DNA of 48,434 nucleotides from Massiliimicrobium timonense (GTDB lineage Bacteria; Bacillota_I; Bacilli_A; Erysipelotrichales; Coprobacillaceae), in contig NZ_NFLJ01000023.1 in assembly GCF_002160865.1 (NCBI RefSeq), forward strand, positions 1-48,434, written 5' to 3'. Below the pieces are notes generated by a model, which was given only the letters and a program-made list of their open reading frames with translations, searched no databases and was not told the DNA's origin. Position numbers and translations under genes: made by a program. Of the stretch, positions 34,465 to 47,972 are shown one piece after another; positions within the stretch are counted from its first letter, which is position 1; each line of letters begins with the position of its first letter.

Positions 34465-34974
34465 ATGTCATATCAATTACAAAAAGCCCATCCACAAGAT
34501 GTTCCTGTTATCTTTGAAATGATATTAGAAAGAGATCAGTGGATGAAAGAAAAAGGCATTACTCAATGGCAAGATACACATTATCTTGATATCTTCCCAC
34601 TTTCCTACTATCAACAGGAACAAGAAAAGGGAAACTTATTTGTTCTTACCGATAACAAACACAACATTATTGCCAGTGCGGTTGTCCATGACTATGACAG
34701 TAATTGGCATGATCATCAACCTGCTCTTTATATTCATCGTTTAGTCAGTCGTCCTCATTTACAGGGTGGTTCTTATTTTTTGAAACGTATTGAAGATTAT
34801 GCCAGACAACTTGGTAAACATTATATAAGGTTAGATTCTATGACAAGTAATCAACCATTAACACAATACTATCAAAAACATGGGTTTATTGCTGTGGGGG
34901 AATGTGAAGAAGGATTATATCAAGGAACATTAAGACAAAAAGCAATATCACCACAAAAGAGAGTGTCAGCTTAG
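34465..34974 (+). CDS. GNAT-family N-acetyltransferase
   Basis: A 169-residue acetyltransferase. The acetyl-CoA-binding stretch is IHRLVSRPHLQGGSYFLKRIE and the C-terminal motif is LTQYYQKHGFIAVGE, both typical of GNAT folds. The substrate is unknown. It is the only plus-strand gene near the left boundary of the accessory island. AGGAGGTACTCATC precedes the start. Its stop overlaps the convergent gene by 4 bp. Confidence 0.85.
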   Translation: MSYQLQKAHPQDVPVIFEMILERDQWMKEKGITQWQDTHYLDIFPLSYYQQEQEKGNLFVLTDNKHNIIASAVVHDYDSNWHDHQPALYIHRLVSRPHLQGGSYFLKRIEDYARQLGKHYIRLDSMTSNQPLTQYYQKHGFIAVGECEEGLYQGTLRQKAISPQKRVSA

Positions 34975-34985
34975 GCACTCTCTTT
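34956..34985. terminator. Bidirectional terminator at the left boundary of the accessory island
   Basis: AAAGAGAGTGTC pairs with GCACTCTCTTT around the overlapping stop codons of two convergent genes. Confidence 0.8.
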
Positions 34986-35501
34986 AATAATAATTTCAAA
35001 TTCATCATCTTCATCAATATGATCAAATATAATATATCCCTCTCCACCTTCTTCAATGATTTCATCAGGTAAAATTTCCTGTCCGTCTTTCATAAGTATA
35101 AAAGAATAATTTTTCAATAATTCTGGATGAACATATAAATCTAATTCATGATCTTGATAGCCTATACCAATCTGATTCATATCCACATCTTCTCCTCTTG
35201 CAAATGACATTCTATAAGTAGAAACAGAGAATGTTTTTTCTATTTGACCCTGCACTTTTACTTTTAGCTCCTGCAAAGTATTTTCTATAATTTCTTGAAT
35301 AGAAATAGTCTGCTTTTGCAAAAAAGTAGTTGGTATATTGGCGATAGCTAATTTTCTTTGAATCAAAACTTGATATTGAGGATTTTTTTCAATTGCAGAC
35401 TGATATTCCTGAATCATTTTTCTTTGTGTGGGTGTTGGTAAAAAAGCTGTCAAAGCCTGAACATAATCATCGATGTCTTCAAGTGTAAGTGTCTGTTTCA
35501 T
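34971..35501 (-). CDS. Unknown protein, 176 residues, partner of the 714-residue protein
   Basis: No family recognised. Residues 1-90 look helical (LEDIDDYVQALTAFLPTPTQ...). The C-terminal half is strand-rich and acidic, ending DEDDEFEIIIKESA. No signal peptide or membrane helix. Its start codon overlaps the stop of the 714-residue gene (4-bp ATGA-type overlap) with GGGAGGTGG inside the upstream gene, so the two are translationally coupled and likely work together. Confidence 0.7.
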   Translation of the reverse strand: MKQTLTLEDIDDYVQALTAFLPTPTQRKMIQEYQSAIEKNPQYQVLIQRKLAIANIPTTFLQKQTISIQEIIENTLQELKVKVQGQIEKTFSVSTYRMSFARGEDVDMNQIGIGYQDHELDLYVHPELLKNYSFILMKDGQEILPDEIIEEGGEGYIIFDHIDEDDEFEIIIKESA

Positions 35502-37642
35502 TCTGCCACCTCCCTCTCTATATTTTGAATGAGTTCAATCCATTGATTGCTCATCAGCATATCTTTATAAACATTTTCTGGATGATATGTATGATATAAG
35601 AAATATTTGATATTATTAGGAGCATTAGAATGTCCAAATGCGACTTTATAAATTGCTTTATGTTTTGAAAATTCAGCCCAATAATATTCTAATAAGTTGA
35701 CATAATCTTTAATTTGTGATTTTTGTTGTTCATCAAAAACATAATCTAAATAAGGACTTTCAAGTGCCGGTATATAATAATATTTCAATAAATGAAAAGT
35801 ATCTGTAAGAATTTTTCTAATCATCTCATCTTTATTTAATTTTTTGTTTTGACATATATAATTTTCAAAACCTTTTTTAAATATTTGTCCTTCACTTTCA
35901 TTTTGATTCATTTTCTGACTTGTTTCACCAATCATGACAATATCAATACGATAGAAAAGATAACCCATATGCCATAACTGACCTTTTAAAATACGAATAA
36001 TTTCTTTTTCCTTTTGTTTTTGATCTTGAACATGAAGATATTCATGATGAAAATCATTGAGTTCTTCATAAAAATCTCGCATTAATGTAAAAACATAGAA
36101 ATCTAAAAATGATATCAAAGCCTGTGCATATTTAACGTTTTGTATTTTTAAAATTGACATATTCATATAACTGAATGTTCTTAAATAATGATTTTCAAAG
36201 TTCTGCATCATTTTTTCTGTCAACTCCATTTGATCCAAATGACGATAATCTTCCAATGAAGAATGTTTTTTTCTAAAAGATGTCCACTCACGTGTCAAAA
36301 CAATTGCATAATCCGAACAAATCCCCTTAAGATTACAAAATTCTTCTACATCATCATGTATTCCTTGTGATAAAGTATAATTGGTATCATTATTATATGT
36401 CTTTTCATTATGGAACTGAATATCTGTATCTATCTGAGTCATTGATAATTCCTCTTGCGTATGTTCATGAGGTTTTTTATTGGCTGATCTATAAATACCA
36501 TCTTCATCCTTTTGAAAACCATCGTTCTCTTGACAATCATGACTCTCTTTTGTTGATGAAAAATTGACTCTATTAACAATAGATGCATAAATATATCCAC
36601 TTAAAGAATGATTGAACTTTTCTACAATCTTTTTGCTTTCATTCTTCCAATGTCTTGAAGCATAGATTAAATATAAATCATATCCAAAACCAGTTGCCAT
36701 CTCCTCCACCATATTTTCAGGTAAATCAATGCTTTGAAATGCTTGTTTATATCGCAACTGTAAATCTATTTTCACATAGAGAAGCATAAAAATCCAACGA
36801 TAAATCTGATAAAAATATTGGTAAACTTGTTTCGCACTTAAATGACCATAGGGTTGAAAGACAAGATATTTTGCTGAGCGATCTGTTGCACGTTTAGAAG
36901 TATAATCAGGACAATTGGTAATATAAGGCTTTACTGCATCAAAAAATTCTAAATCTTTTTTAAAGATATGGTTGCCTGATGATCCACCAGCATCTTTGAC
37001 TTTTGTTAGAGAATAATACTTCATTTCCAGATGAGGTTTATATGTAACCATTTCATCAAACATTTCCTGTAAATGAGCAATAGATTTTAATCCTATCTTG
37101 TCTAAATAGTCTTGAAAGGTCATCTTTCCTTCCATTTTCATATCATGTGGAAAATGAGCAAAAACGATTGCTTTTAAAAGATGGAATAATTGTTTCTCAT
37201 CTTCTTTTAGAATTCTATTAAGTTCCACTTGTTTTTTGATAAAAATATCATGTTCATCATCTAAATCATGATTAAAATGATGATCTTCTAAAAACTTCTT
37301 AAAAGCTTCTGAAGTTGTACAAAAACATTGTCCTTGTTTAAATAGTTCTTTATATTCCTTATCGTTAAGACATACAAGATAAGGTGAAAGTTCATTTCTT
37401 AAATAAAATAAACGTATGATATTTTCAAAAAATTCCTTCATATGAGATGGATCATCATAATAATTGATATTTTGATTTTCTAAAGCCTCATTCATATAAT
37501 TGATTGTTTTTTGAATATCTTCTTCAATATGTTGAGGATGAACAACGATTTCATCGACATCAATATTCAATTTCAATAAAGGTTCTATATCAAATAAATC
37601 AATAGCTTGTCGTAAAGATGTTTGATTATCTACATTTTCCAT
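35498..37642 (-). CDS. Large unknown protein, 714 residues
   Basis: No family recognised. It is soluble by composition, mostly helical, and rich in Tyr, His, Asp and Lys. Residues about 225-260 contain AGGSSGNHIFKK. A His/Glu/Asn-rich low-complexity stretch lies around 370-420, dividing an N-terminal and a C-terminal helical part (the latter with YYIPALESPYLDYVFDE). The ATG at 37642 is the only start in frame. The nearest good ribosome binding site (AAGGAGGTGAC) lies 36 nt upstream with an 8-bp hairpin between, so initiation looks regulated or unusual. The 176-residue gene follows. Confidence 0.75.
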   Translation of the reverse strand: MENVDNQTSLRQAIDLFDIEPLLKLNIDVDEIVVHPQHIEEDIQKTINYMNEALENQNINYYDDPSHMKEFFENIIRLFYLRNELSPYLVCLNDKEYKELFKQGQCFCTTSEAFKKFLEDHHFNHDLDDEHDIFIKKQVELNRILKEDEKQLFHLLKAIVFAHFPHDMKMEGKMTFQDYLDKIGLKSIAHLQEMFDEMVTYKPHLEMKYYSLTKVKDAGGSSGNHIFKKDLEFFDAVKPYITNCPDYTSKRATDRSAKYLVFQPYGHLSAKQVYQYFYQIYRWIFMLLYVKIDLQLRYKQAFQSIDLPENMVEEMATGFGYDLYLIYASRHWKNESKKIVEKFNHSLSGYIYASIVNRVNFSSTKESHDCQENDGFQKDEDGIYRSANKKPHEHTQEELSMTQIDTDIQFHNEKTYNNDTNYTLSQGIHDDVEEFCNLKGICSDYAIVLTREWTSFRKKHSSLEDYRHLDQMELTEKMMQNFENHYLRTFSYMNMSILKIQNVKYAQALISFLDFYVFTLMRDFYEELNDFHHEYLHVQDQKQKEKEIIRILKGQLWHMGYLFYRIDIVMIGETSQKMNQNESEGQIFKKGFENYICQNKKLNKDEMIRKILTDTFHLLKYYYIPALESPYLDYVFDEQQKSQIKDYVNLLEYYWAEFSKHKAIYKVAFGHSNAPNNIKYFLYHTYHPENVYKDMLMSNQWIELIQNIEREVAE

Positions 37643-37779: not shown

Positions 37780-37971
37780 CTATGACAATAATTTCCAAAT
37801 AACAATAAGTAAGAATCCTATCATTTCAATCAATATCAATATGACTTGTATTAACTGTTTTCCTATGAAATCATCAATATTTTCTAATAAATATTGAATA
37901 AAGATATTTTGTTCTAATGTCTCATTTTTTATAACCATACGTTTGATGTCTTCATATCTTTCTTCATTCAT
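37780..37971 (-). CDS. Tail-anchored microprotein (63 residues)
   Basis: Starts MNEERYEDIKRMVIKNETLE after AAAGGAGATTTTAACG; the open frame upstream to 38010 has no site. Residues 1-40 are a charged, helical cytosolic part. Residues 41-62 are one hydrophobic helix (VILILIEMIGFLLIVIW) at the very C-terminus. This layout recurs in six short proteins of the island. No family recognised. It lies 14 bp after the next microprotein gene, in one operon with the small TPR protein. Confidence 0.7.
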   Translation of the reverse strand: MNEERYEDIKRMVIKNETLEQNIFIQYLLENIDDFIGKQLIQVILILIEMIGFLLIVIWKLLS

Positions 37972-37985
37972 CGTTAAAATCTCCT

Positions 37986-38129
37986 TTAATAAAAAATGGC
38001 ATATACGCAAATGAGCATTAAGAAGACTGCATTAAAAACAACATATCTTAAATAAATAGATTGTTCTTTTGCTAATTCATCAACTAATTCTTGAATAAGT
38101 TCTTGTTCATTTATGATCACTTGTTCCAT
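37986..38129 (-). CDS. Tail-anchored microprotein (47 residues)
   Basis: Starts MEQVIINEQELIQELVDELA after GAGGAGGATTAACTCT. An acidic amphipathic helix of about 28 residues is followed by a hydrophobic segment (VVFNAVFLMLICVYAIFY) reaching the last residue. It has the same architecture as its neighbour but no visible sequence identity. It begins 4 bp after the small TPR gene, so the three are co-transcribed. Short proteins like this are easily missed; the strong ribosome binding site and operon spacing support it. Confidence 0.7.
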   Translation of the reverse strand: MEQVIINEQELIQELVDELAKEQSIYLRYVVFNAVFLMLICVYAIFY

Positions 38130-38133
38130 AGAG

Positions 38134-38541
38134 TTAATCCTCCTCGTCTTTGCGTTTAAGCAAGAATTTGAATTCTTGTTCAGATTTTTCTTGTTGTTTT
38201 ATTGTTTTTTCGAAATATGTATTGTAACGATTCTCTAAAAATCTCAAATCACATCCATCAAGGCTGTAATAAAAACACAAATGTCGTCTTATGTCATTAA
38301 AACAACTTAATATCATTTGACATAAAGAATAAGCCTCTCTATTGATTCTTAAAGCTTTTTCATAATCAAGTTTTTTATCATAAGGATCTCCATTTAAAAG
38401 AAAATCCAATCCTCTTTTATCTCCTTTTTCATATTCTTGTTTTGCAAAATCAAAACATTGTTGAAGTATTTCTAAAGCATTTTCATAATTTTTTTCAGCA
38501 TAATATTTTCTTGCTTGTTTCATTGCGTTGTATAAATCCAT
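38134..38541 (-). CDS. Small TPR-like protein (135 residues)
   Basis: Two TPR-type helix pairs can be seen: NYENALEILQQCFDFAKQEY and DYEKALRINREAYSLCQMIL, similar in style to repeats of the CHAT protein (for example DYQKALEMYKQCYDLSQTYY). The C-terminus is a charged helix (EKTIKQQEKSEQEFKFLLK). I start it at MDLYNAMKQ (38541), 8 nt after GGAGG; five more codons upstream are open but include that site. It probably acts as an adaptor. It leads an operon with two tail-anchored microproteins. Confidence 0.72.
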   Translation of the reverse strand: MDLYNAMKQARKYYAEKNYENALEILQQCFDFAKQEYEKGDKRGLDFLLNGDPYDKKLDYEKALRINREAYSLCQMILSCFNDIRRHLCFYYSLDGCDLRFLENRYNTYFEKTIKQQEKSEQEFKFLLKRKDEED

Positions 38542-38661: not shown

Positions 38662-38823
38662 TTAATCAATTGGTATAAAACGATAACAATAATCATTTGG
38701 GGGCTTAATTTTATCATCAATATCACAACGATGAGCATCTCTAAAATATGCATAATGTCGACAATATTGACAAACTTTATCACTATCTCATAATGAACAG
38801 TCTTGACATTTTACTTTACACAT
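38662..38823 (-). pseudogene. Seven-Cys peptide, copy 1, with TGA at the conserved Trp codon
   Basis: Reads MCKVKCQDCSL, then TGA at 38788-38790 (codon 12), then continues in frame for 41 more codons with all remaining cysteines (C18, C21, C33, C46) to a TAA. Intact copies have TGG at that codon, so one G-to-A change explains it. RF2 is encoded in this genome, and no start codon follows the TGA, so the gene should make an 11-residue peptide unless the stop is read through. Its C-terminus (IKPPNDYCYRF...) differs from the other copies, so it had diverged before or after the change. Confidence 0.75.
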
Positions 38824-38880
38824 AACTTTTTCCCTCCTTTCACTTATTAAGATAAATACATGTAAGAATTCCCATTTTTA
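38824..38880 (-). promoter_or_regulatory. Shared island leader, instance upstream of Cys peptide copy 1
   Basis: The minus strand contains AAAAATGGGA, then TATCTTAATAAGTGAAAGG and the GGAGGG ribosome binding site. The same block precedes six other genes or relics: 39068-39123, 39312-39366, 43470-43524, 44981-45026, 45171-45216 and 47891-47936. In two cases (39356-39366 and 45201-45216) the ATGGGA part doubles as a hairpin arm. The constant part extends well beyond a ribosome binding site, so it could be a promoter, a translational control element or a recombination block. Confidence 0.65.
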
Positions 38881-39067: not shown

Positions 39068-39155
39068 AGCTTTTTCCCTCCTTTCACTTATTAAGATAAA
39101 TACATGTAGGAATTCCCATTTTTACTATAAGTTTACATGTTTTATGCTCGTTCTT

Positions 39156-39311: not shown

Positions 39312-39346
39312 AACTTTTTCCCTCCTTTCACTTATTAAGGTAATAA

Positions 39347-39377
39347 CAAATAAAAAATCCCATTTTTATTTGGGATT
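39347..39377 (-). terminator. Terminator after the CHAT/SpoVG operon
   Basis: AATCCCA (39356-39362) pairs with TGGGATT (39371-39377). The minus transcript continues TTTTTTATTTG. The right part merges into the leader of Cys peptide copy 3. Confidence 0.75.
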
Positions 39378-39379
39378 CT

Positions 39380-39730
39380 TTATTTCACTTCATTTACAAT
39401 TTCAAAATCATCTGGTAACTGTTCCAGTAAAGGAACATTTTCATATTTTGATACAAAATCAGCAATATCAAGATGAGATTCATCTGTCATCTTTGCACAT
39501 GACAAAATGATATTTTCTAATACTGCTCGACATTCTTGACAAATAGGATGACAAATATCAGCCCATTGATCATCTTTTATTTTTTTAGAAGGCATAGCTA
39601 TAAATGCTTTTTCTTCATCTTCTATCACCTTGATATCATGTACTGCAAAAACATGATCAAAGACAATACTCGCAATAAATTTTAATCTTGTTTCATTATT
39701 CAATTTTTTAATACGTACGTTTGTAATCAT
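39380..39730 (-). CDS. spoVG: SpoVG-like nucleic-acid-binding regulator (116 residues)
   Basis: The SpoVG fold is clear in ITNVRIKKLNNETRLKFIAS, FDHVFAVHDIKVIEDEEKAF and IAMPSKKIKDD, then DICHPI. It is longer than typical SpoVG (about 90-100 residues) by a C-terminal helical tail (LIADFVSKYEN-type; here LDIADFVSKYENVPL). SpoVG proteins bind DNA and RNA and control gene expression. The start is the ATG at 39730: AAGGAG overlaps the stop of the CHAT gene, so its translation is coupled to it. This places a regulator in the same operon as the protease. Confidence 0.85.
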   Translation of the reverse strand: MITNVRIKKLNNETRLKFIASIVFDHVFAVHDIKVIEDEEKAFIAMPSKKIKDDQWADICHPICQECRAVLENIILSCAKMTDESHLDIADFVSKYENVPLLEQLPDDFEIVNEVK

Positions 39731-39742
39731 TTTTTCCACTCC

Positions 39743-42700
39743 TTATCTTATTTTTCCTTGAATAATAAATCCATTCCAGTCTTCTTTATCATTTTCATTT
39801 CTTAAAAGATAACCTTGACTTTGACATAAATGTAAATAATTTTCTAAATGTCGTTTGATAAAACGATATGACTTTGGATAAACTTTTGATACATATTCTG
39901 GAAATTCATTGGCATAAATCTGTAATTCTTTTAAAGCCTGTCGATCATCTCTTAAATATTTTTTTGTTTCTAAAAAGGATTGATAAACATTTTTATTTTC
40001 ACAATATTTTCGATAAAATGTTTTCATAAAAATAGCAGCATTATGATCCTGAATAGCTTCAACTGTTAAGATCATAGTTTTCACCCCTGCTAATTCAAAT
40101 GCTCTCCTTAATCCATAAATACCTTCTCCAGGCAATACATCTCCTTTTGCGGTTAGACATGCTGATAAAACTAAAAGATTTGTATTTTTTAAATCCATTT
40201 CTTTTTGAATATCATTAGCAGAAACATAACCTTTTTGATATTCTTCCTTATGATTTGTCTGATTATATCCAGCTAAACATAATCTTCCTCTCTCCATTAT
40301 GTTTTGTTCATCTTGCAAATATTCTCCATGCGTTGATACATGTAATATGGAAGGACTATGAACAGCTAAAAATTCTGTTACATTGGCCTTCTTTCCACTG
40401 TAAATCTTAGCTTCAGGAAAAACACTTTGAATATAATGCCCTTCGACAAGACTTCCCGGAAGTGATGATTTCTTCCCTGCACCTCTTGTTTCGTCAAAAT
40501 CATCGTCAGCTAATGTATCATCAAAATCTGGTGATACAAATGATACAATATCATCATGATTATGAATATTCCCTTCATAAAACAATCCTTTGGGTAAAGA
40601 AAGATAACTGATATCTTTATCAATGAATCGTTCAAAAGATACATGATACAAATCACCATCTGGACATATATAAATATGTTGAATATGGCTTAGATGCTTT
40701 TGAATCTTATCTATTCCATAATCATCAACAATATAACTTTCAAATAAATCTTTGCCTATGACAACCAAACCATATTGATGCTGATTTAACTGATAATAAT
40801 CCAATAACAAATCATTGTCCTGTAAATGACTGACTATCATGGAATCATTCATATTCAACATCAGTTGATCTTGATATTGCTTCATCATTTGTTTTAATTC
40901 TTCATGTATCTTTTCTTTTTGTTGTTGAAGCTGAAGAATAGTGTGTGTATCTTCAGTTTGATGTATCTGTTTTTCAATATGATTCATATGATTGATTTTT
41001 TGAGCATATTGAGGATTTTGTTTTAAACGACTGCGTAAGATCTCAATATCTTGAATGATATTTTTATAAGATACAAGATATTGATAATCTGTTAAATGTC
41101 TATAGTGATGAAAGTAATATGATTGATATATCTGTATAACACCAATCAGGCACAGTAGAAAATTTTTATGTGAAGCTTCGCTTAATAAATAATATTGATA
41201 AATCTGCTGTTTCATATCTTCTAAAAAACGTTTCGCATACATTTCAAAAAGATTATCGATATGAAGTTTATGATAAGATAAAACCAATTCACCTAAACAA
41301 AGTAGTGTATTCATATGTTTTGGTCCTAAAACTTTATGATATAATTCATAGGCATCTCGATATAATTGATTGGCTTTTATTAAATCTAAAGAATTATAAG
41401 CTTGAGCTATAATATGTAAAACAGTTATTGTTTCAGGATGTGATGATCCTTTGATCTGTTTTAATTGTTGATAATACTGTTCCAACAAACCAATGATTTG
41501 AGGTAATTGTTTATGATTTTGTAATATTGAAGATATAATTGGCAATATCATCTGTGAAACTTGTGTAAACTGGCTTGTATTCATATTCTTTAAATGTTCT
41601 TCAATCTTGGCATAAAGTATGGAAGATTGATGATTGTTTTCCTGTGTTGTTATGAGGTGGTCTATTAAACTATCAACAACATACATATTGATTAAAGACT
41701 CTAGAACCTCGATACTATTTTCACCAAAGACTTCTTTTTGTAAATTGTAACATCTTTCATATTTTTTAAATGCCTCTTTATAGTTAGCTAATCGAAAATA
41801 TATCAGTGCTAATTGACTTAAAGTATTGATAAAAGTTTTATCTTTTTCACCAAATAACTTTTCTTCTATTTCATAAACTTTTAAACAATAGGATAATGCC
41901 TGTTCATATTGATCCAAATCAACATAAATGTCTATAAGTTGATTTAAACTATTTAATGTATCTCTATGCGTTTCACCTAAGACTTCTTTTTGTAAAGCAT
42001 AACACTTTTCTTCTAATTCAATAGCTTTTAAATTTTTTCCCATAGCATAATATAAATAACTTAAATCATGAAGTGATTGTAGTGTTTTCGGATCATTATA
42101 TCCGTACTTCTCTTTTTTGAGAAGATACAACTTATCTTGAAACTCTATGGCTTTTTCTATGTCATTATTTTTTTGAAGACAGCGAATATAATTTTGTAAC
42201 ATATCTAAACAATGATTATATTTTTCTCCATAAGTTTCCTTCATTGTTATATAAGCCTTTTGGGCTAATTCTAAGCTTTTTTGATATTCACCAATCTGAT
42301 AATAAACAGTACTTAAATCACTCAAAGTGATGAGAGTATAAACATGTGTTTGCCCTAATCGTTCTTTACGTATTTGATAAACATTTGATAACACTTCTTG
42401 AGCTTTTGCATATTCTTTCAAATTCAAATAAAGTTTACCTAAACAAGAATAAACTGATATTGTTTCGTTATGATCTTTTCCATAATATTTTTTGAACATA
42501 TCATAACAATTTTCTAAAATCTTGACAGCTTCTTGATGATATCCTAATTGATTAACTATTACCCCTAATTCTTTCATACTTTTAAGTGTATCAATATCTG
42601 TTTCACCTAAAATACTTTTTTGCATATGATAAGCTTCATGAATCATATCATAAGCTTTTTGATAATCTCCAACATCATTATAAGCCATACCAAGACTATA

Positions 42701-43156
42701 TAAATACAATAATGTATCTCTATTTTTTAAACCATAATATGTTTGTGATAAATCATAACACTGCTTATACATTTCCAATGCTTTTTGATAATCAGAAACA
42801 TCATGATAGGACAAAGCAAGATTATAACAAATCACAATAAATTCTTGACTTCTATGACTCAAAATATCTTGTATATGATGATAAACTTCTAAAGCTGCAT
42901 CTAATGCATGAAAATAATCACCTGTATCTGCATAAGTTCTTCCTAAATTATTCAAACAAATAAGAGTTTCTATAGCATATCTCCCATATAAATCACATGC
43001 CATTTCATAACACTTTTTGTGCAGCTTCAATGCTTCAAAATATTTCATTTCCTGTTTATAAAGATTTGCCTGTCGATCATAATCAACAATTTGATCTTCA
43101 TAAAACTGTTTTCTTAACTTCATTTGACTTTTTTTCAAAAAATTCATTCCTATCAC
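39743..43156 (-). CDS. TPR-CHAT caspase/separase-like protease (1137 residues)
   Basis: Residues 39 to about 500 are eleven consecutive 42-residue TPR units, each with a ...AL/AI...CY... helix and a YG/LG...T pattern (TPR_12/kinesin-light-chain type). Two more divergent units lie near 550-640. A coiled coil (about 700-770) leads to a CHAT domain at about 790-1120. The catalytic pair is H943 in HVSTHGEYL and C1000 in LVLSACLTAKGDVLPGEG. CHAT proteases with TPRs (for example Csx29 of Craspase) cleave specific protein targets on activation. The start may be GTG 43156 or ATG 43147. The next gene is SpoVG-like. The target is unknown. Confidence 0.9.
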   Translation of the reverse strand: MIGMNFLKKSQMKLRKQFYEDQIVDYDRQANLYKQEMKYFEALKLHKKCYEMACDLYGRYAIETLICLNNLGRTYADTGDYFHALDAALEVYHHIQDILSHRSQEFIVICYNLALSYHDVSDYQKALEMYKQCYDLSQTYYGLKNRDTLLYLYSLGMAYNDVGDYQKAYDMIHEAYHMQKSILGETDIDTLKSMKELGVIVNQLGYHQEAVKILENCYDMFKKYYGKDHNETISVYSCLGKLYLNLKEYAKAQEVLSNVYQIRKERLGQTHVYTLITLSDLSTVYYQIGEYQKSLELAQKAYITMKETYGEKYNHCLDMLQNYIRCLQKNNDIEKAIEFQDKLYLLKKEKYGYNDPKTLQSLHDLSYLYYAMGKNLKAIELEEKCYALQKEVLGETHRDTLNSLNQLIDIYVDLDQYEQALSYCLKVYEIEEKLFGEKDKTFINTLSQLALIYFRLANYKEAFKKYERCYNLQKEVFGENSIEVLESLINMYVVDSLIDHLITTQENNHQSSILYAKIEEHLKNMNTSQFTQVSQMILPIISSILQNHKQLPQIIGLLEQYYQQLKQIKGSSHPETITVLHIIAQAYNSLDLIKANQLYRDAYELYHKVLGPKHMNTLLCLGELVLSYHKLHIDNLFEMYAKRFLEDMKQQIYQYYLLSEASHKNFLLCLIGVIQIYQSYYFHHYRHLTDYQYLVSYKNIIQDIEILRSRLKQNPQYAQKINHMNHIEKQIHQTEDTHTILQLQQQKEKIHEELKQMMKQYQDQLMLNMNDSMIVSHLQDNDLLLDYYQLNQHQYGLVVIGKDLFESYIVDDYGIDKIQKHLSHIQHIYICPDGDLYHVSFERFIDKDISYLSLPKGLFYEGNIHNHDDIVSFVSPDFDDTLADDDFDETRGAGKKSSLPGSLVEGHYIQSVFPEAKIYSGKKANVTEFLAVHSPSILHVSTHGEYLQDEQNIMERGRLCLAGYNQTNHKEEYQKGYVSANDIQKEMDLKNTNLLVLSACLTAKGDVLPGEGIYGLRRAFELAGVKTMILTVEAIQDHNAAIFMKTFYRKYCENKNVYQSFLETKKYLRDDRQALKELQIYANEFPEYVSKVYPKSYRFIKRHLENYLHLCQSQGYLLRNENDKEDWNGFIIQGKIR

Positions 43157-43203
43157 ATCCCAGCTTTCCTATTCAAATACAAGACACTATCTGACTTATC
43201 TTT

Positions 43204-43244
43204 ATTATAAATATTTATAAATCAGTATGAAATAAAAATTTCAA
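43204..43244 (-). promoter_or_regulatory. Candidate promoter of the CHAT gene
   Basis: The 115-bp gap has a minus-strand TATAAT (43204-43209) and a TTGAAA (43239-43244) with TTTATA 17 bp downstream. More than one start is possible. Confidence 0.45.
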
Positions 43245-43271
43245 CTATACAATAAAATAATTCATGAAAAT

Positions 43272-43306
43272 CGAAAGATTATTGAAAAAACTTCAATAAC
43301 CTTTCG
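43272..43306 (-). terminator. Strong terminator between Cys peptide copy 4 and the CHAT gene
   Basis: CGAAAGGTTATTGAA and TTCAATAATCTTTCG on the minus strand form a 15-bp stem with one G-U pair, then ATTTTC. Confidence 0.8.
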
Positions 43307-43313
43307 TTCAATT

Positions 43314-43469
43314 TTAACCTTTAAAACGATAACAATAATTATATGGACTGACTCTTTTATCATCAATATCACAACGATAAGCATCTCTAAAATAAGCATA
43401 ATGATCGCAATATTGACAAACTTTATCACTTGCCCATAATGCACAGTCTTGACATTTAACTTTACACAT
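43314..43469 (-). CDS. Seven-Cys peptide, copy 4 (51 residues)
   Basis: Intact and dispersed 4.2 kb from the tandem array. Begins MCKVKCQDCALWASDKVCQY and ends YNYCYRFKG, with Cys at 2, 6, 9, 18, 21, 33 and 46. Its C-terminus resembles copy 1 (CYRF) more than copies 2 and 3. The shared leader is the only sequence between the metallopeptidase stop and its start, so leader plus gene behaves like a cassette inserted there. A strong terminator follows. Confidence 0.75.
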   Translation of the reverse strand: MCKVKCQDCALWASDKVCQYCDHYAYFRDAYRCDIDDKRVSPYNYCYRFKG

Positions 43470-43522
43470 AACTCTTACCTCCTTTCACTTTATAAGATAA
43501 TAACAAGTCATAAATCCCATTT

Positions 43523-44248
43523 TTAATTAAGTTGTTGATGATGACGAAAAGCAATATAACATTTTCCTTCAAAATAACTGAGATGATTATTGAAAACATC
43601 TTCAAAAAAGGATATATCATTTTCAAAATAAGCTTGAATAACATCTTCTTGATTGAAATATTTTTTTTCAAGTTGTCTATTGATATAATCATCAAAAGAT
43701 AGTTCAAAAAAACATCTTTGATCTGATGATATTTGTTTACCTGTTATTTGAAGATTCAAAATATTCGCAATATAATCTGTTAATAATTCATTGGTTATAT
43801 TGTAAATGACATGATATTTTTTATATTGATCTTGATCATTGACATAAATATACGAATTGATTCCTACTTTTCTTATTAATAAATCACCATATATATGATA
43901 GTGACAACTTGACAACAAATGAACAAGTTCATGAATAATCACATGAGATATCTGTGGAGAATCCATATTTGATAAAAAGATAATAGATTTCAGTTCTTCA
44001 TATTTGTCATTTATCTTTTCTGGTGGAAAATGACAATAATGTGTTCTCAATATTGGATTGACCTCTCTTATTTGATGCGTTGTGACACTCTCAGTTATAT
44101 AGGATTGATGTAAATTGTTATGAATTTGATAAAACAAAACATTTTCTTTTAAATATTGGAATCTTTTGATGGTATCTTCATGGCATATAGAAGCTAATAG
44201 GCAAATAAGCATATCTAATAACCCTCTTGCATAACTGATTTCATTCAT
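43523..44248 (-). CDS. Putative zinc metallopeptidase (HELVH)
   Basis: A 241-residue protein with an HExxH motif at residues 106-110 (SHVIIHELVHLLSSCH) inside a hydrophobic helix, and a likely third ligand E154 in NELLTDYIANIL 44 residues later, the gluzincin-like arrangement. No signal peptide, so it is probably cytoplasmic. It is not assigned to a named family. ATG 44248 follows GAAAGAAGA; a TTG at 44272 is possible but weaker. It is the last gene of a cluster of four microproteins and may process them or the Cys peptides (inference). Confidence 0.65.
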   Translation of the reverse strand: MNEISYARGLLDMLICLLASICHEDTIKRFQYLKENVLFYQIHNNLHQSYITESVTTHQIREVNPILRTHYCHFPPEKINDKYEELKSIIFLSNMDSPQISHVIIHELVHLLSSCHYHIYGDLLIRKVGINSYIYVNDQDQYKKYHVIYNITNELLTDYIANILNLQITGKQISSDQRCFFELSFDDYINRQLEKKYFNQEDVIQAYFENDISFFEDVFNNHLSYFEGKCYIAFRHHQQLN

Positions 44249-44261
44249 ATCTATTCTTCTT

Positions 44262-44438
44262 TCAAAGAACAAGTACGCTGATAAAAGATATAATCAAAAT
44301 AACATCGATGATGAAATCTTCTATGAATCTCAATCTATCAATATAAAGAATATCTATGACTTTTTCTAAAATTTCTGGGTCATATAGAAACTCTTGATTT
44401 GCACATATTAATTTTAAAATATTATAACTAGAAATCAT
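44262..44438 (-). CDS. Tail-anchored microprotein (58 residues)
   Basis: Starts MISSYNILKLICANQEFLYD at ATG 44438, 9 nt after AAGGAAAGG; a GTG three codons upstream sits on the site itself. A charged part (about 40 residues) is followed by a very hydrophobic C-terminus (DFIIDVILIISFISVLVL). Longer than its neighbours but the same topology. The next gene, the metallopeptidase, begins 13 bp later. Confidence 0.65.
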   Translation of the reverse strand: MISSYNILKLICANQEFLYDPEILEKVIDILYIDRLRFIEDFIIDVILIISFISVLVL

Positions 44439-44458
44439 TGTTTTCACCCTTTCCTTGA

Positions 44459-44605
44459 CTATAAAAATTTTTCAATAATCATCATAATAATCATCGAACT
44501 ATTCACTATAAAAACCAAATGACGTAAAGCTCGTGCATGATGATAAGATTCTCTTACATGTACATCATAGCTGACTATAAATTTCTTCAACGTTTTTTCA
44601 TCCAT
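44459..44605 (-). CDS. Tail-anchored microprotein (48 residues)
   Basis: Starts MDEKTLKKFIVSYDVHVRES after GAGAGGAGAATTTAT. A basic/His-rich stretch (YHHARALRH) precedes a hydrophobic segment (LVFIVNSSMIIMMII) and a short EKFL end. It overlaps nothing and lies 13 bp from the upstream gene. No family recognised. Confidence 0.65.
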   Translation of the reverse strand: MDEKTLKKFIVSYDVHVRESYHHARALRHLVFIVNSSMIIMMIIEKFL

Positions 44606-44618
44606 ATAAATTCTCCTC

Positions 44619-44771
44619 TCAAAGGATATTAATTACTATCACAAGTAAACTGAGTCCTATAATTGTTATTAATTTTTGAACTATCATTTTTATATATAGT
44701 TTTTTCATATCCATAAGTAATTGTTGAATTTCTTCATCTTTATCAATAACCGTTATTTCAATAATATCCAT
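44619..44771 (-). CDS. Tail-anchored microprotein (50 residues)
   Basis: Starts MDIIEITVIDKDEEIQQLLM after AAAAAGGAGATTGTATT. An acidic helix precedes a basic neck (KKLYIKMIVQK) and a hydrophobic tail (LITIIGLSLLVIVINIL) that ends the protein. A positive neck before the helix fits an N-inside, C-outside topology. Second in the four-gene microprotein run. Confidence 0.68.
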   Translation of the reverse strand: MDIIEITVIDKDEEIQQLLMDMKKLYIKMIVQKLITIIGLSLLVIVINIL

Positions 44772-44789
44772 AATACAATCTCCTTTTTG

Positions 44790-44933
44790 TTAATGAAATT
44801 TTAAATAATATACAGTACATAATATAATCAATAAAACAATGTTTAGAAATTGAATCACTCTGTACCATTTCAAGCTTTCAGATTGTTGATCTTTTAAAAT
44901 ATCAATCATTGCTTGTTTGTATTCATCCATCAT
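44790..44933 (-). CDS. Tail-anchored microprotein (47 residues)
   Basis: Starts MMDEYKQAMIDILKDQQSES with GGAAAGGAG 6 nt upstream (adjacent ATGs at 44939 and 44930 are possible). Its C-terminal hydrophobic stretch is FLNIVLLIILCTVYYL, followed by KFH. First gene of the run downstream of the shared leader at 44981-45026. Confidence 0.66.
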   Translation of the reverse strand: MMDEYKQAMIDILKDQQSESLKWYRVIQFLNIVLLIILCTVYYLKFH

Positions 44934-44980
44934 CTTCATCTCCTTTCCTACTTTCATCAAAACTTTTTAATTTTAAATAT

Positions 44981-45026
44981 TCCCCCTTTCACCCATTAAG
45001 ATAAATACATTAAAAAGTCCCCATTT
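44981..45026 (-). promoter_or_regulatory. Shared island leader, instance before the four-microprotein operon
   Basis: The minus strand carries AAAATGGGGA, TATCTTAATGGGTGAAAGG and a GGGGG variant of the ribosome binding site, but the first gene starts about 48 bp later with its own site. An imperfect copy whose original gene was probably lost. Confidence 0.6.
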
Positions 45027-45028
45027 TC

Positions 45029-45045
45029 TTAGACTGAAAGTCTAA
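45029..45045 (-). terminator. Small hairpin after the 29-residue gene
   Basis: TTAGACT pairs with AGTCTAA around three bases. No clear U-run, so a weak terminator or a leader hairpin. Confidence 0.4.
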
Positions 45046-45071
45046 AATCCATCAATCTTCACTTGTTTCCA

Positions 45072-45161
45072 TCAATAACAATAATATTCTTTTCTTTTTT
45101 CTTTAAAATCTGTTTCAGAAATACTCAATAAACAATCTTCATCTATGAGAATTCTTTTCAT
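45072..45161 (-). CDS. Possible 29-residue peptide
   Basis: Starts MKRILIDEDCLLSISETDFK with GGGAGGAATTGAAC before the ATG and the shared leader upstream; ends with YYCY. No family recognised, and two Cys only. Such a short frame could be chance, but the leader and site are as strong as those of the seven-Cys genes, so it may be an expressed peptide or the stub of a lost gene. Confidence 0.4.
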   Translation of the reverse strand: MKRILIDEDCLLSISETDFKEKRKEYYCY

Positions 45162-45170
45162 GTTCAATTC

Positions 45171-45216
45171 CTCCCTTCACCTATTAAGACAAATACATTG
45201 AATAATTCCCATTTTC
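45171..45216 (-). promoter_or_regulatory. Shared island leader, instance before the 29-residue peptide
   Basis: The minus strand reads AAAATGGGAATT, then TGTCTTAATAGGTGAAGG and GGAGG. Same layout as at 38824-38880. Confidence 0.6.
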
Positions 45217-45246
45217 TATCATTAAAAACTTTCCTTACATAAAAAT

Positions 45247-45273
45247 GGGATATAACTTTTAAAGCTATATCCC
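45247..45273 (-). terminator. Terminator after the broken ATPase gene
   Basis: GGGATATA pairs with TATATCCC with further pairing inside. The minus transcript continues ATTTTTATG. Confidence 0.65.
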
Positions 45274-45349
45274 TTATAACAACTTTTTAAATTTTGATAA
45301 AAAATAAAGAACAGGAAAAAGTTACTTACACCTTGTCTATTATAAATGA

Positions 45350-46582
45350 TTATAAAAATGGAGCTAAATACATAGGCATAAATTGTATACCCTTTTCCTG
45401 TTTATAGTCTTTTTGCGAAAAAACATAACAATTTTTTATATGTTTAGAATATTTTTTTGCAAATTCACATAGAGAATCATGTTTACCTAATCCTGAGGAT
45501 TTAACCTCAATAGCTGAAATTTTACTTCCTTCAGAAATTAAAAAATCTATCTCATAATAATGAGTGCTATTTTCTCTTTCCCATGTATGATAATATAATT
45601 CTCTATCCTTTGAAGCTAATAACTGTGCCATTAAGTTTTCATACAAATAACCTAAATGAGCTGGTAATTTATCAGAAAGTAATTTAGCTTATATTTCATT
45701 TTCTATAATAGGTCGATCTATAAACATAAGTGTTACGAATAATCCTGTATCAGATAAATAGAGTTTATAACTATTGATATCTTTTGATGAAGATAAACTC
45801 ACTTTAGAATCAGTTGAATTATAGCATGGTAATACAGTCTTAGAATCAAATAAATCAAATAATAATAATTCTTCTTTCTCTCTTTTTAAGTACAGAGGAC
45901 ATACGATATTTTTTTGACCTTTTGCTAACTGAGCGGGAATTGAATGATAAAGTGCAGATATTTTTCCAGAAGGATCTATTTTTTTGAAATCTTCTTCATA
46001 AAGATAAATAATCTGACGTTTTACATTATCTATAGTAGAAAAATTATTTCCATTTACATACGCTTCAACGGCTTGAGGCATACCCCCGACTGCCATATAA
46101 ATTCTCATATCTCTCATAAGTTTTCTATTCACTTCTTGACCAACAGCTTTTTTCATATCAAACAATTGCTTGATTAAATGATAATTATTTCCTGTTGCAT
46201 TGCAGAATTCTTCATAATCCATAGAATAAACTGTTATTTTCATTTCTTCAGAAGGAATGAGGATATCTTTCACGTTCTTTTTAATAGATATTAAAGAACC
46301 GGTTTCAATGTAATGATATCGTCCGTCTTTTACCAAATGTTTAATGGCCTGTCTAGCCCTAGGGAATAACTGTACTTCATCAAAACAAGATAATATATCA
46401 GTTGAAGCAATTGAAAAATCTATTAAAATATATGATTTGTATTCATTTTCAGCAAATAATTTAGCAATTGTTGATTTCCCTACACGCCTCGCACCTTCTA
46501 ACAAAACAGCATAACTATCAGCATAATTTAATTTCCACTCTATTAATTTATCATAAGCTTTTCTTTTAAAATACATGATCAT
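45350..46582 (-). pseudogene. AAA ATPase of the DUF4143 type, broken by one nonsense codon
   Basis: The first part (46582-45692, 297 residues) has the P-loop GARRVGKST at residues 30-38 and the family stretch GSLISIKKNVKDILIPSEEM, then MAVGGMPQAVEAYV. TAA at 45689-45691 interrupts. The same frame continues AKLLSDKLPAHLGYLYENLM and ends in the DUF4143-type nuclease-like tail (YYEIDFLISEGSKISAIEVKSS). A Tyr-to-stop change fits. Such ATPases are multi-copy, of poorly known function, and often in accessory regions. No good ribosome binding site is seen at the start. Confidence 0.82.
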
Positions 46583-47582: not shown

Positions 47583-47759
47583 TTAACAACGAATTGTATG
47601 AAGATGAAGCAAACCATAAGCTTCAAGACTTATGCGATAAGATTGCAGATTAAACTTTAATGCCTGATGAAAATCTGATATTTGAGTATAAGTGATAACC
47701 AGCAAATTATCGAACTTGCTTATTTCTTTATGCTGACCATAAATTTGATACAATGATTG
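47583..47759 (-). pseudogene. Relic of a second TPR-repeat protein
   Basis: A 58-codon open stretch without start reads SLYQIYGQHKEIS, then TYTQISDFHQALKFNLQSYR, ISLEAYGLLHLHTI. The YG-to-YG spacing and ...A-L-K... helix match the 42-residue repeats of the CHAT protein. It is closed by TGA upstream (47763-47765) and TAA downstream. A related frame IKAAVETYLSCNKLSK lies just upstream, shifted. This is debris of a TPR or TPR-CHAT gene. Confidence 0.6.
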
Positions 47760-47890
47760 ATATCATTCTTAACTTTTGATAACTTGTTACACGACAAATA
47801 TGTTTCTACTGCTGCTTTAATTTCATTATTTAAATCTATTTTTCATCACCTCATATCATTTTCAATATCAAAAATTGTTTCATTTTCGTT

Positions 47891-47936
47891 AACCTCCCTT
47901 CGCCTATTAAGACATTAACATTAAAAAAATCCCATA
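47891..47936 (-). promoter_or_regulatory. Shared island leader, instance before gene debris
   Basis: The minus strand carries TTTATGGGA, TGTCTTAATAGGCGAAGG and GGAGG, then an ATG at 47883 that opens only ten codons (MKQFLILKMI). The original gene is lost or the leader is a solo copy. Confidence 0.55.
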
Positions 47937-47972
47937 AAAAAACCACAAACAATTTTTCCATTGTTTATGGTT
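47934..47972 (-). terminator. Strong terminator after the frameshifted membrane-anchored gene
   Basis: AACCATAAACAAT pairs with ATTGTTTGTGGTT (one G-U) on the minus strand, followed by TTTTTTT. Confidence 0.85.

Follow-up and report, generated by a model that had tools for sequence, protein, structure and literature searches.

The window (the whole stretch of 48,434 nucleotides analysed here) carries on its minus strand a block of four small genes, m1–m4, next to the gene of a predicted metallopeptidase in an island that encodes a TPR-CHAT protease-like protein. There is good support for describing them as membrane microproteins that can be exchanged at a CHAT locus. The original prediction saw in the run a set of variant effectors or membrane docking peptides. 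The microproteins of the locus do vary and exchange, by a species-specific insertion and by an allele swap of m5, a member of a second tail-anchored pair, while their role as effectors or docking peptides is what we infer from the surrounding genes and from known systems.

Four microprotein genes and their coding signals

44790–44933, minus strand: m1, predicted tail-anchored microprotein of 47 aa; SD AAAGGAG; C-terminal hydropathy 2.3; probable m5 paralogue
44619–44771, minus strand: m2, predicted tail-anchored microprotein of 50 aa; SD AAAGGAG; hydropathy 2.5; annotated frame with the top codon score
44459–44605, minus strand: m3, predicted tail-anchored microprotein of 48 aa; SD AGGAG; hydropathy 1.9
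44262–44438, minus strand: m4, predicted tail-anchored microprotein of 58 aa; SD AAGGA; hydropathy 2.7; weak codon score

The 5'-to-3' order on the minus strand is a 29-codon gene, m1, m2, m3, m4, and the HEXXH peptidase gene, with spacers of 18, 13, 20, and 13 nt from m1 through to the peptidase. As predicted, four consecutive microprotein genes (47, 50, 48, and 58 codons) with short gaps precede the metallopeptidase gene, each starting with ATG behind an SD-like site. The predicted common topology is also seen in all four, with the best hydrophobic segment (hydropathy 1.9–2.7, mean over the best 18 residues) at the extreme C terminus, and with four to five Lys or Arg residues in each N-terminal part. 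The soluble helix proposed for the N-terminal part is no more amphipathic than shuffled sequences. The remark that the longest frame would pass a 60-codon cut-off applies only to m4 read from an upstream GTG (61 codons), and not to its 58 codons from ATG; microproteins below that cut-off would be skipped by gene callers that apply it.

When the 823-nt gap was dinucleotide-shuffled 2000 times, no ORF passing all criteria (at least 45 aa, ATG, SD, and a C-terminal hydrophobic helix) arose, compared with four observed, and with SD alone the maximum was one ORF. Among 66 spurious ORFs of 40–70 aa located within long genes, ATG together with SD occurred in one, and a C-terminal hydrophobic segment in two. 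In each of m1–m4 the annotated frame has a higher codon score than the other five frames, narrowly so in m4, where the score is weakly positive (0.011 per codon). That these are functionless chance ORFs in AT-rich DNA might be argued from the barely positive score of m4 and from the frames of m1–m4, whose conservation has no comparison to draw on because both relatives lack the block; against the shuffles, the four SD sites, and the top rank of the correct frame in every case, this explanation is highly improbable. Judged by these signals, all four are very probably real genes. No terminator-like site was found from 45247 to 43306, so that m1–m4 and the peptidase gene could share a transcript. 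A promoter scan was uninformative (21 found, 25 expected).

Relatives of the microproteins

No credible homologues of m1–m4 were found in the family (43 genomes) or in the order (309 genomes). Weak order-level matches cross an artificial linker into ORFs of ~450 aa, and were taken as chance similarity of hydrophobic sequence. Viral contigs contain no credible homologue of m2, m3, or m4, and blastn against phages and plasmids returned just short, scattered AT-rich matches. PHROGs gave no credible match for m1–m4, and no significant match was obtained in Pfam, NCBIfam, or PHROGs.

The four had been described as unrelated sequences, which needs some qualification. In hhalign comparisons m2–m4 resemble neither m5 nor m6, but m1 resembles the 47-aa protein m5, encoded elsewhere in the island (87%, E 4e-6 against the m5 family). 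Its score of 28.8 exceeds all 300 composition-preserving shuffles (maximum 26.4), with eight comparisons made; thus, by sequence similarity, m1 is probably an m5 paralogue.

The block as an insertion

44249–45079, minus strand: insertion block carrying m1–m4, 831 bp relative to G001 and G002 (blastn and alignment)
44979–45029, minus strand: leader repeat of 51 nt (repeat family D4), orphaned copy
45072–45161, minus strand: 29-codon gene with leader, the upstream neighbour of the block, kept in three species
43314–43469, minus strand: Cys-rich mini-protein of 51 aa, with leader

The window is collinear by blastn with the sister species (G001) over 39510–44248 (94%) and 45080–46385 (98%), and only 30 bp separate these segments in G001. 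A third species (G002) also lacks the block while keeping both neighbours, with a different short junction of ~70 bp. The block is therefore dispensable in these relatives. The peptidase of the window is 91% identical to that of G001 and 72% identical to that of G002, and since the window is nearer to G001 at nearly every gene, a single gain in its lineage is simpler than two losses. This polarity, with the block gained in the lineage of the window, is what we infer. At the head of the block lies the orphan leader copy, which lacks the ORF expected behind it; the block may plausibly have been acquired when leader copies recombined. In our tentative reading, m1–m4 are an accessory cassette that a TPR-CHAT island on the chromosome has gained recently and can exchange. 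The locus shows cassette-wise variation of microproteins.

The gain of the block as a unit, as well as the small size and the single hydrophobic helix of its products, would also suit independent hydrophobic toxins or addiction-type genes that simply landed in the island. However, the topologically alike and partly homologous m5/m6 pair is already a member of the island in three species, and no antitoxin gene was recognised, which makes such an origin quite improbable.

The remaining leader copies are located at 38830–38880, 39074–39124, 39318–39368, 43475–43525, 45167–45217, and 47890–47940, with the consensus ATGTATTTATCTTAATAAGTGAAAGGAGG. The leader stands in front of the 29-codon gene and of every Cys-rich gene. 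The pattern (up to three mismatches) is confined to the locus within its own genome, and Rfam gave no RNA match in the locus, leader included. The 51-aa Cys-rich gene at 43314–43469 differs from its G001 counterpart by six synonymous and no nonsynonymous changes. The Cys-rich (CxxC) mini-proteins, of 51–56 aa, are present in five copies (39311–39156, 39067–38912, 38823–38677, 43469–43314, and 47110–46952), three of them in tandem at 244 bp; a TGA interrupts the one at 38823.

Conservation and exchange of the sister pair

37986–38129, minus strand: m5, tail-anchored microprotein of 47 aa, kept in three species, with two allelic forms
37780–37971, minus strand: m6, tail-anchored microprotein of 63 aa, kept in three species
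38134–38541, minus strand: TPR-like protein of 135 aa with a weak TPR match, inside the recombined patch, 90% identical to G002

The pair m5/m6 (38129–37780) has the same topology as m1–m4, and its reading frames are conserved in relatives. Between the window and G002, m5 differs by five synonymous changes and one nonsynonymous change, and dN/dS of m6 is 0.63 (few changes) and 0.27. By these substitution patterns both genes are under purifying selection, constrained and not fast-diverging.

The affinities of m5 differ from those of the CHAT gene: for m5, identity reaches 95.8% against G002 but only 69.4% against G001, whereas the corresponding values for CHAT are 77.4% and 94.4%. The patch of high identity to G002 extends over ~38660–37900, with its end falling inside m6. 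Such incongruence (binomial 7e-21 and 8e-10) is very unlikely under clonal descent, so that at least one tail-anchored microprotein, existing in two forms, has moved between species.

A strict tail-anchor scan yielded 11 SD-bearing small ORFs in 283 kb of loci picked around CHAT and related genes, which are not a random genome sample. Ten lie in the CHAT island of the three species, and the eleventh between two CHAT genes of another genome (G019). Runs similar to m1–m4, which the original prediction proposed to look for next to CHAT genes, were not present beside the other CHAT genes examined.

The CHAT island

39743–43147, minus strand: TPR-CHAT protease-like protein of 1134 aa (Pfam CHAT E 8.8e-35, TPR_12 E 2e-67)
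43523–44248, minus strand: predicted HEXXH peptidase of 241 aa (HVIIHELVH)
39380–39730, minus strand: SpoVG homologue (PF04026, E 3.7e-27)
35498–37642, minus strand: core protein of 714 aa, of no known family; relatives adjoin CHAT genes in G002:C4, G026, and G038
34971–35501, minus strand: core protein of 176 aa, of no known family

Read 5' to 3', the island starts with a broken AAA_14/DUF4143 ATPase gene, followed by the 29-codon gene, m1–m4, the peptidase, the 51-aa Cys-rich protein, and TPR-CHAT, and continues with SpoVG, further Cys-rich copies, the TPR-like protein, m5, m6, and the 714-aa and 176-aa proteins. The CHAT match reaches 121 bits against a curated cut-off of 24. Its His/Cys dyad is found as STHG ... 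LSAC in the window and in homologues with a complete CHAT region, and as SSHG ... LSAC in one of the relatives (G041). In the 241-aa protein, HELVH and NELLTD are invariant in three species; no Pfam family scores above its cut-off, the mean pLDDT of the model is 42, and the nearest named relatives are from uncultured Massilimicrobiota MAGs. Its assignment as a metallopeptidase is a prediction from these motifs. The model of the 714-aa protein is likewise of low confidence (mean pLDDT 40). Since the trio of the 714-aa, 176-aa, and CHAT proteins recurs in the distant loci G002:C4, G026, and G038, it represents the core of the island.

Two congeners (G003 and G004) lack the island at the same chromosomal site, between the V-ATPase and a formate/nitrite-type transporter gene. 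CHAT domains are rare in the bacterial class, with 4 of 395 genomes carrying one, and CHAT relatives were absent from viral contigs. A PADLOC scan of eight locus proteins gave no significant match. The island resembles a biological-conflict locus, by analogy with known systems probably one directed against phages.

Comparison with known systems

In the type III-E CRISPR Craspase, the TPR-CHAT protein Csx29 cuts Csx30, which is encoded next to it (PMC10028731). The island resembles this system (Csx29 with Csx30, Csx31, and CASP-sigma) in combining a TPR-CHAT protein carrying a His/Cys dyad with small accessory genes, but no Cas7-11-type gene was recognised among its neighbours, and its accessories are membrane proteins of 47–63 aa. 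Bacterial caspase-like proteases cleave adjacent membrane-active gasdermins, and in these loci too the gene of a caspase-like or CHAT protease adjoins that of a membrane-active partner (review PMC9612521); however, the island includes no gasdermin, and m1–m4, with a single helix and 47–58 aa, are too small. Conflict systems also pair zincins with small, rapidly diverging proteins (PMC7159879). In the VMAP/FtsH ternary peptide-processing systems (zincin with FxSxx-COOH), small variable proteins adjoin a zincin-like peptidase, as they adjoin the predicted peptidase of the island, and TPR proteins are common to both (PMC7159879), whereas no FxSxx motif and no radical SAM, vWA, or MoxR gene was seen in the island. 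Like the island, the two-gene system of EACC1 and a caspase joins a small single-helix membrane protein to a protease of the caspase superfamily (PMC7159879). EACC1 differs in that its helix is central, flanked by alpha+beta elements, and bears a small-residue patch, and in being present once per locus, unlike the tail-anchored run of the island; m1–m4, read by sequence rather than with an EACC1 profile, have no clear small-residue patch. As Cas7-11, gasdermin, and the FxSxx motif are all absent, the island is not a member of those precedent families. The published precedents (Csx29 with Csx30, caspase-like proteases with gasdermins, and the zincin pairs) make cleavage of the microproteins plausible.

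Possible functions of the microproteins

In the proposed mechanism, the most likely of those considered, m1–m4 would be held in the membrane by their C-terminal helices. Their N-terminal 25–40 residues would lie in the cytosol, where the adjoining HEXXH peptidase and TPR-CHAT, both predicted proteases, could recognise them. Triggering of the TPR-CHAT sensor would lead to cleavage that frees or activates the membrane helices, which might then harm the membrane or signal, and the presence of several different microproteins might provide redundancy or help to evade counter-measures. For the microproteins all of this is supposition: membrane insertion and orientation, cleavage and its effect, and an anti-phage role. 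In favour of the mechanism are the non-random run with its codon scores, its shared direction with the peptidase gene, the concentration of tail-anchored ORFs in the island, the purifying selection on m5/m6, the swap of m5, the clean insertion, the absence of the island from G003 and G004, the intact CHAT dyad, and the published precedents. Counting against it are the dispensability of the block in both relatives, the absence of such runs at the other CHAT loci examined, the lack of a PADLOC match, and the constraint on m5/m6. We can speculate that TPR-CHAT and the metallopeptidase act within a conflict island on a changing set of tail-anchored effectors, with cassettes gained or swapped between species, although this combined scheme is rather doubtful. 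CHAT protease substrates are known in few cases, and the locus offers a defined set of candidates.

TPR domains bind peptides, and the closest solved relatives are kinesin light chains, which are cargo adaptors. The microproteins might be docking or adaptor peptides and not effectors, tethering the soluble peptidase, TPR-CHAT, or the Cys-rich proteins to the membrane via their cytosolic helices. No clear membrane segment is visible in either protease, and m5/m6 are constrained like core genes, both of which suit docking, but a single anchor would suffice for this purpose, and the relatives retain the peptidase without m1–m4. While the variation of the microproteins fits an arms race, the constraint on m5/m6 also fits docking; for this reason their role as effectors or substrates of the island proteases is put forward as a guarded possibility, and docking is considered somewhat unlikely.

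The microproteins could also be precursors, in peptide processing or in a signalling pair, that the adjoining predicted zincin trims to release peptides. A zincin beside small diverging proteins recalls the pairs described in PMC7159879, and FxSxx_TPR matches the TPR part below threshold. Such processing is nonetheless improbable, given C termini without FxSxx in m1–m4, an island in which no radical SAM gene was seen, and two species that keep the peptidase yet lack m1–m4.

Additional features of the CHAT loci

The AAA_14/DUF4143 ATPase gene (46582–45350) is interrupted by a stop at 45689; in G001 it likewise carries a frameshift, and G002 lacks it. A TPR fragment at 47753–47583 is a probable remnant of a 226-aa TPR gene, which G002 retains in intact form at the corresponding position. 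The SpoVG homologue, directly behind TPR-CHAT, is kept in G002. In the latter species, a DnaK-like gene of 547 aa (locus L014, 5156–6799) lies immediately upstream of the second TPR-CHAT gene. In another locus (L015, 9379–15434), two tandem TPR-CHAT genes are separated by an ORF for a 63-aa membrane protein, which runs on the opposite strand. Relatives of the 176-aa protein (L036, 9623–10180; L037, 764–1321) are found in clusters with WXG100-like small proteins and a large EssC/FtsK-like ATPase, and in the L036 cluster inspection by eye additionally points to a probable radical SAM gene.
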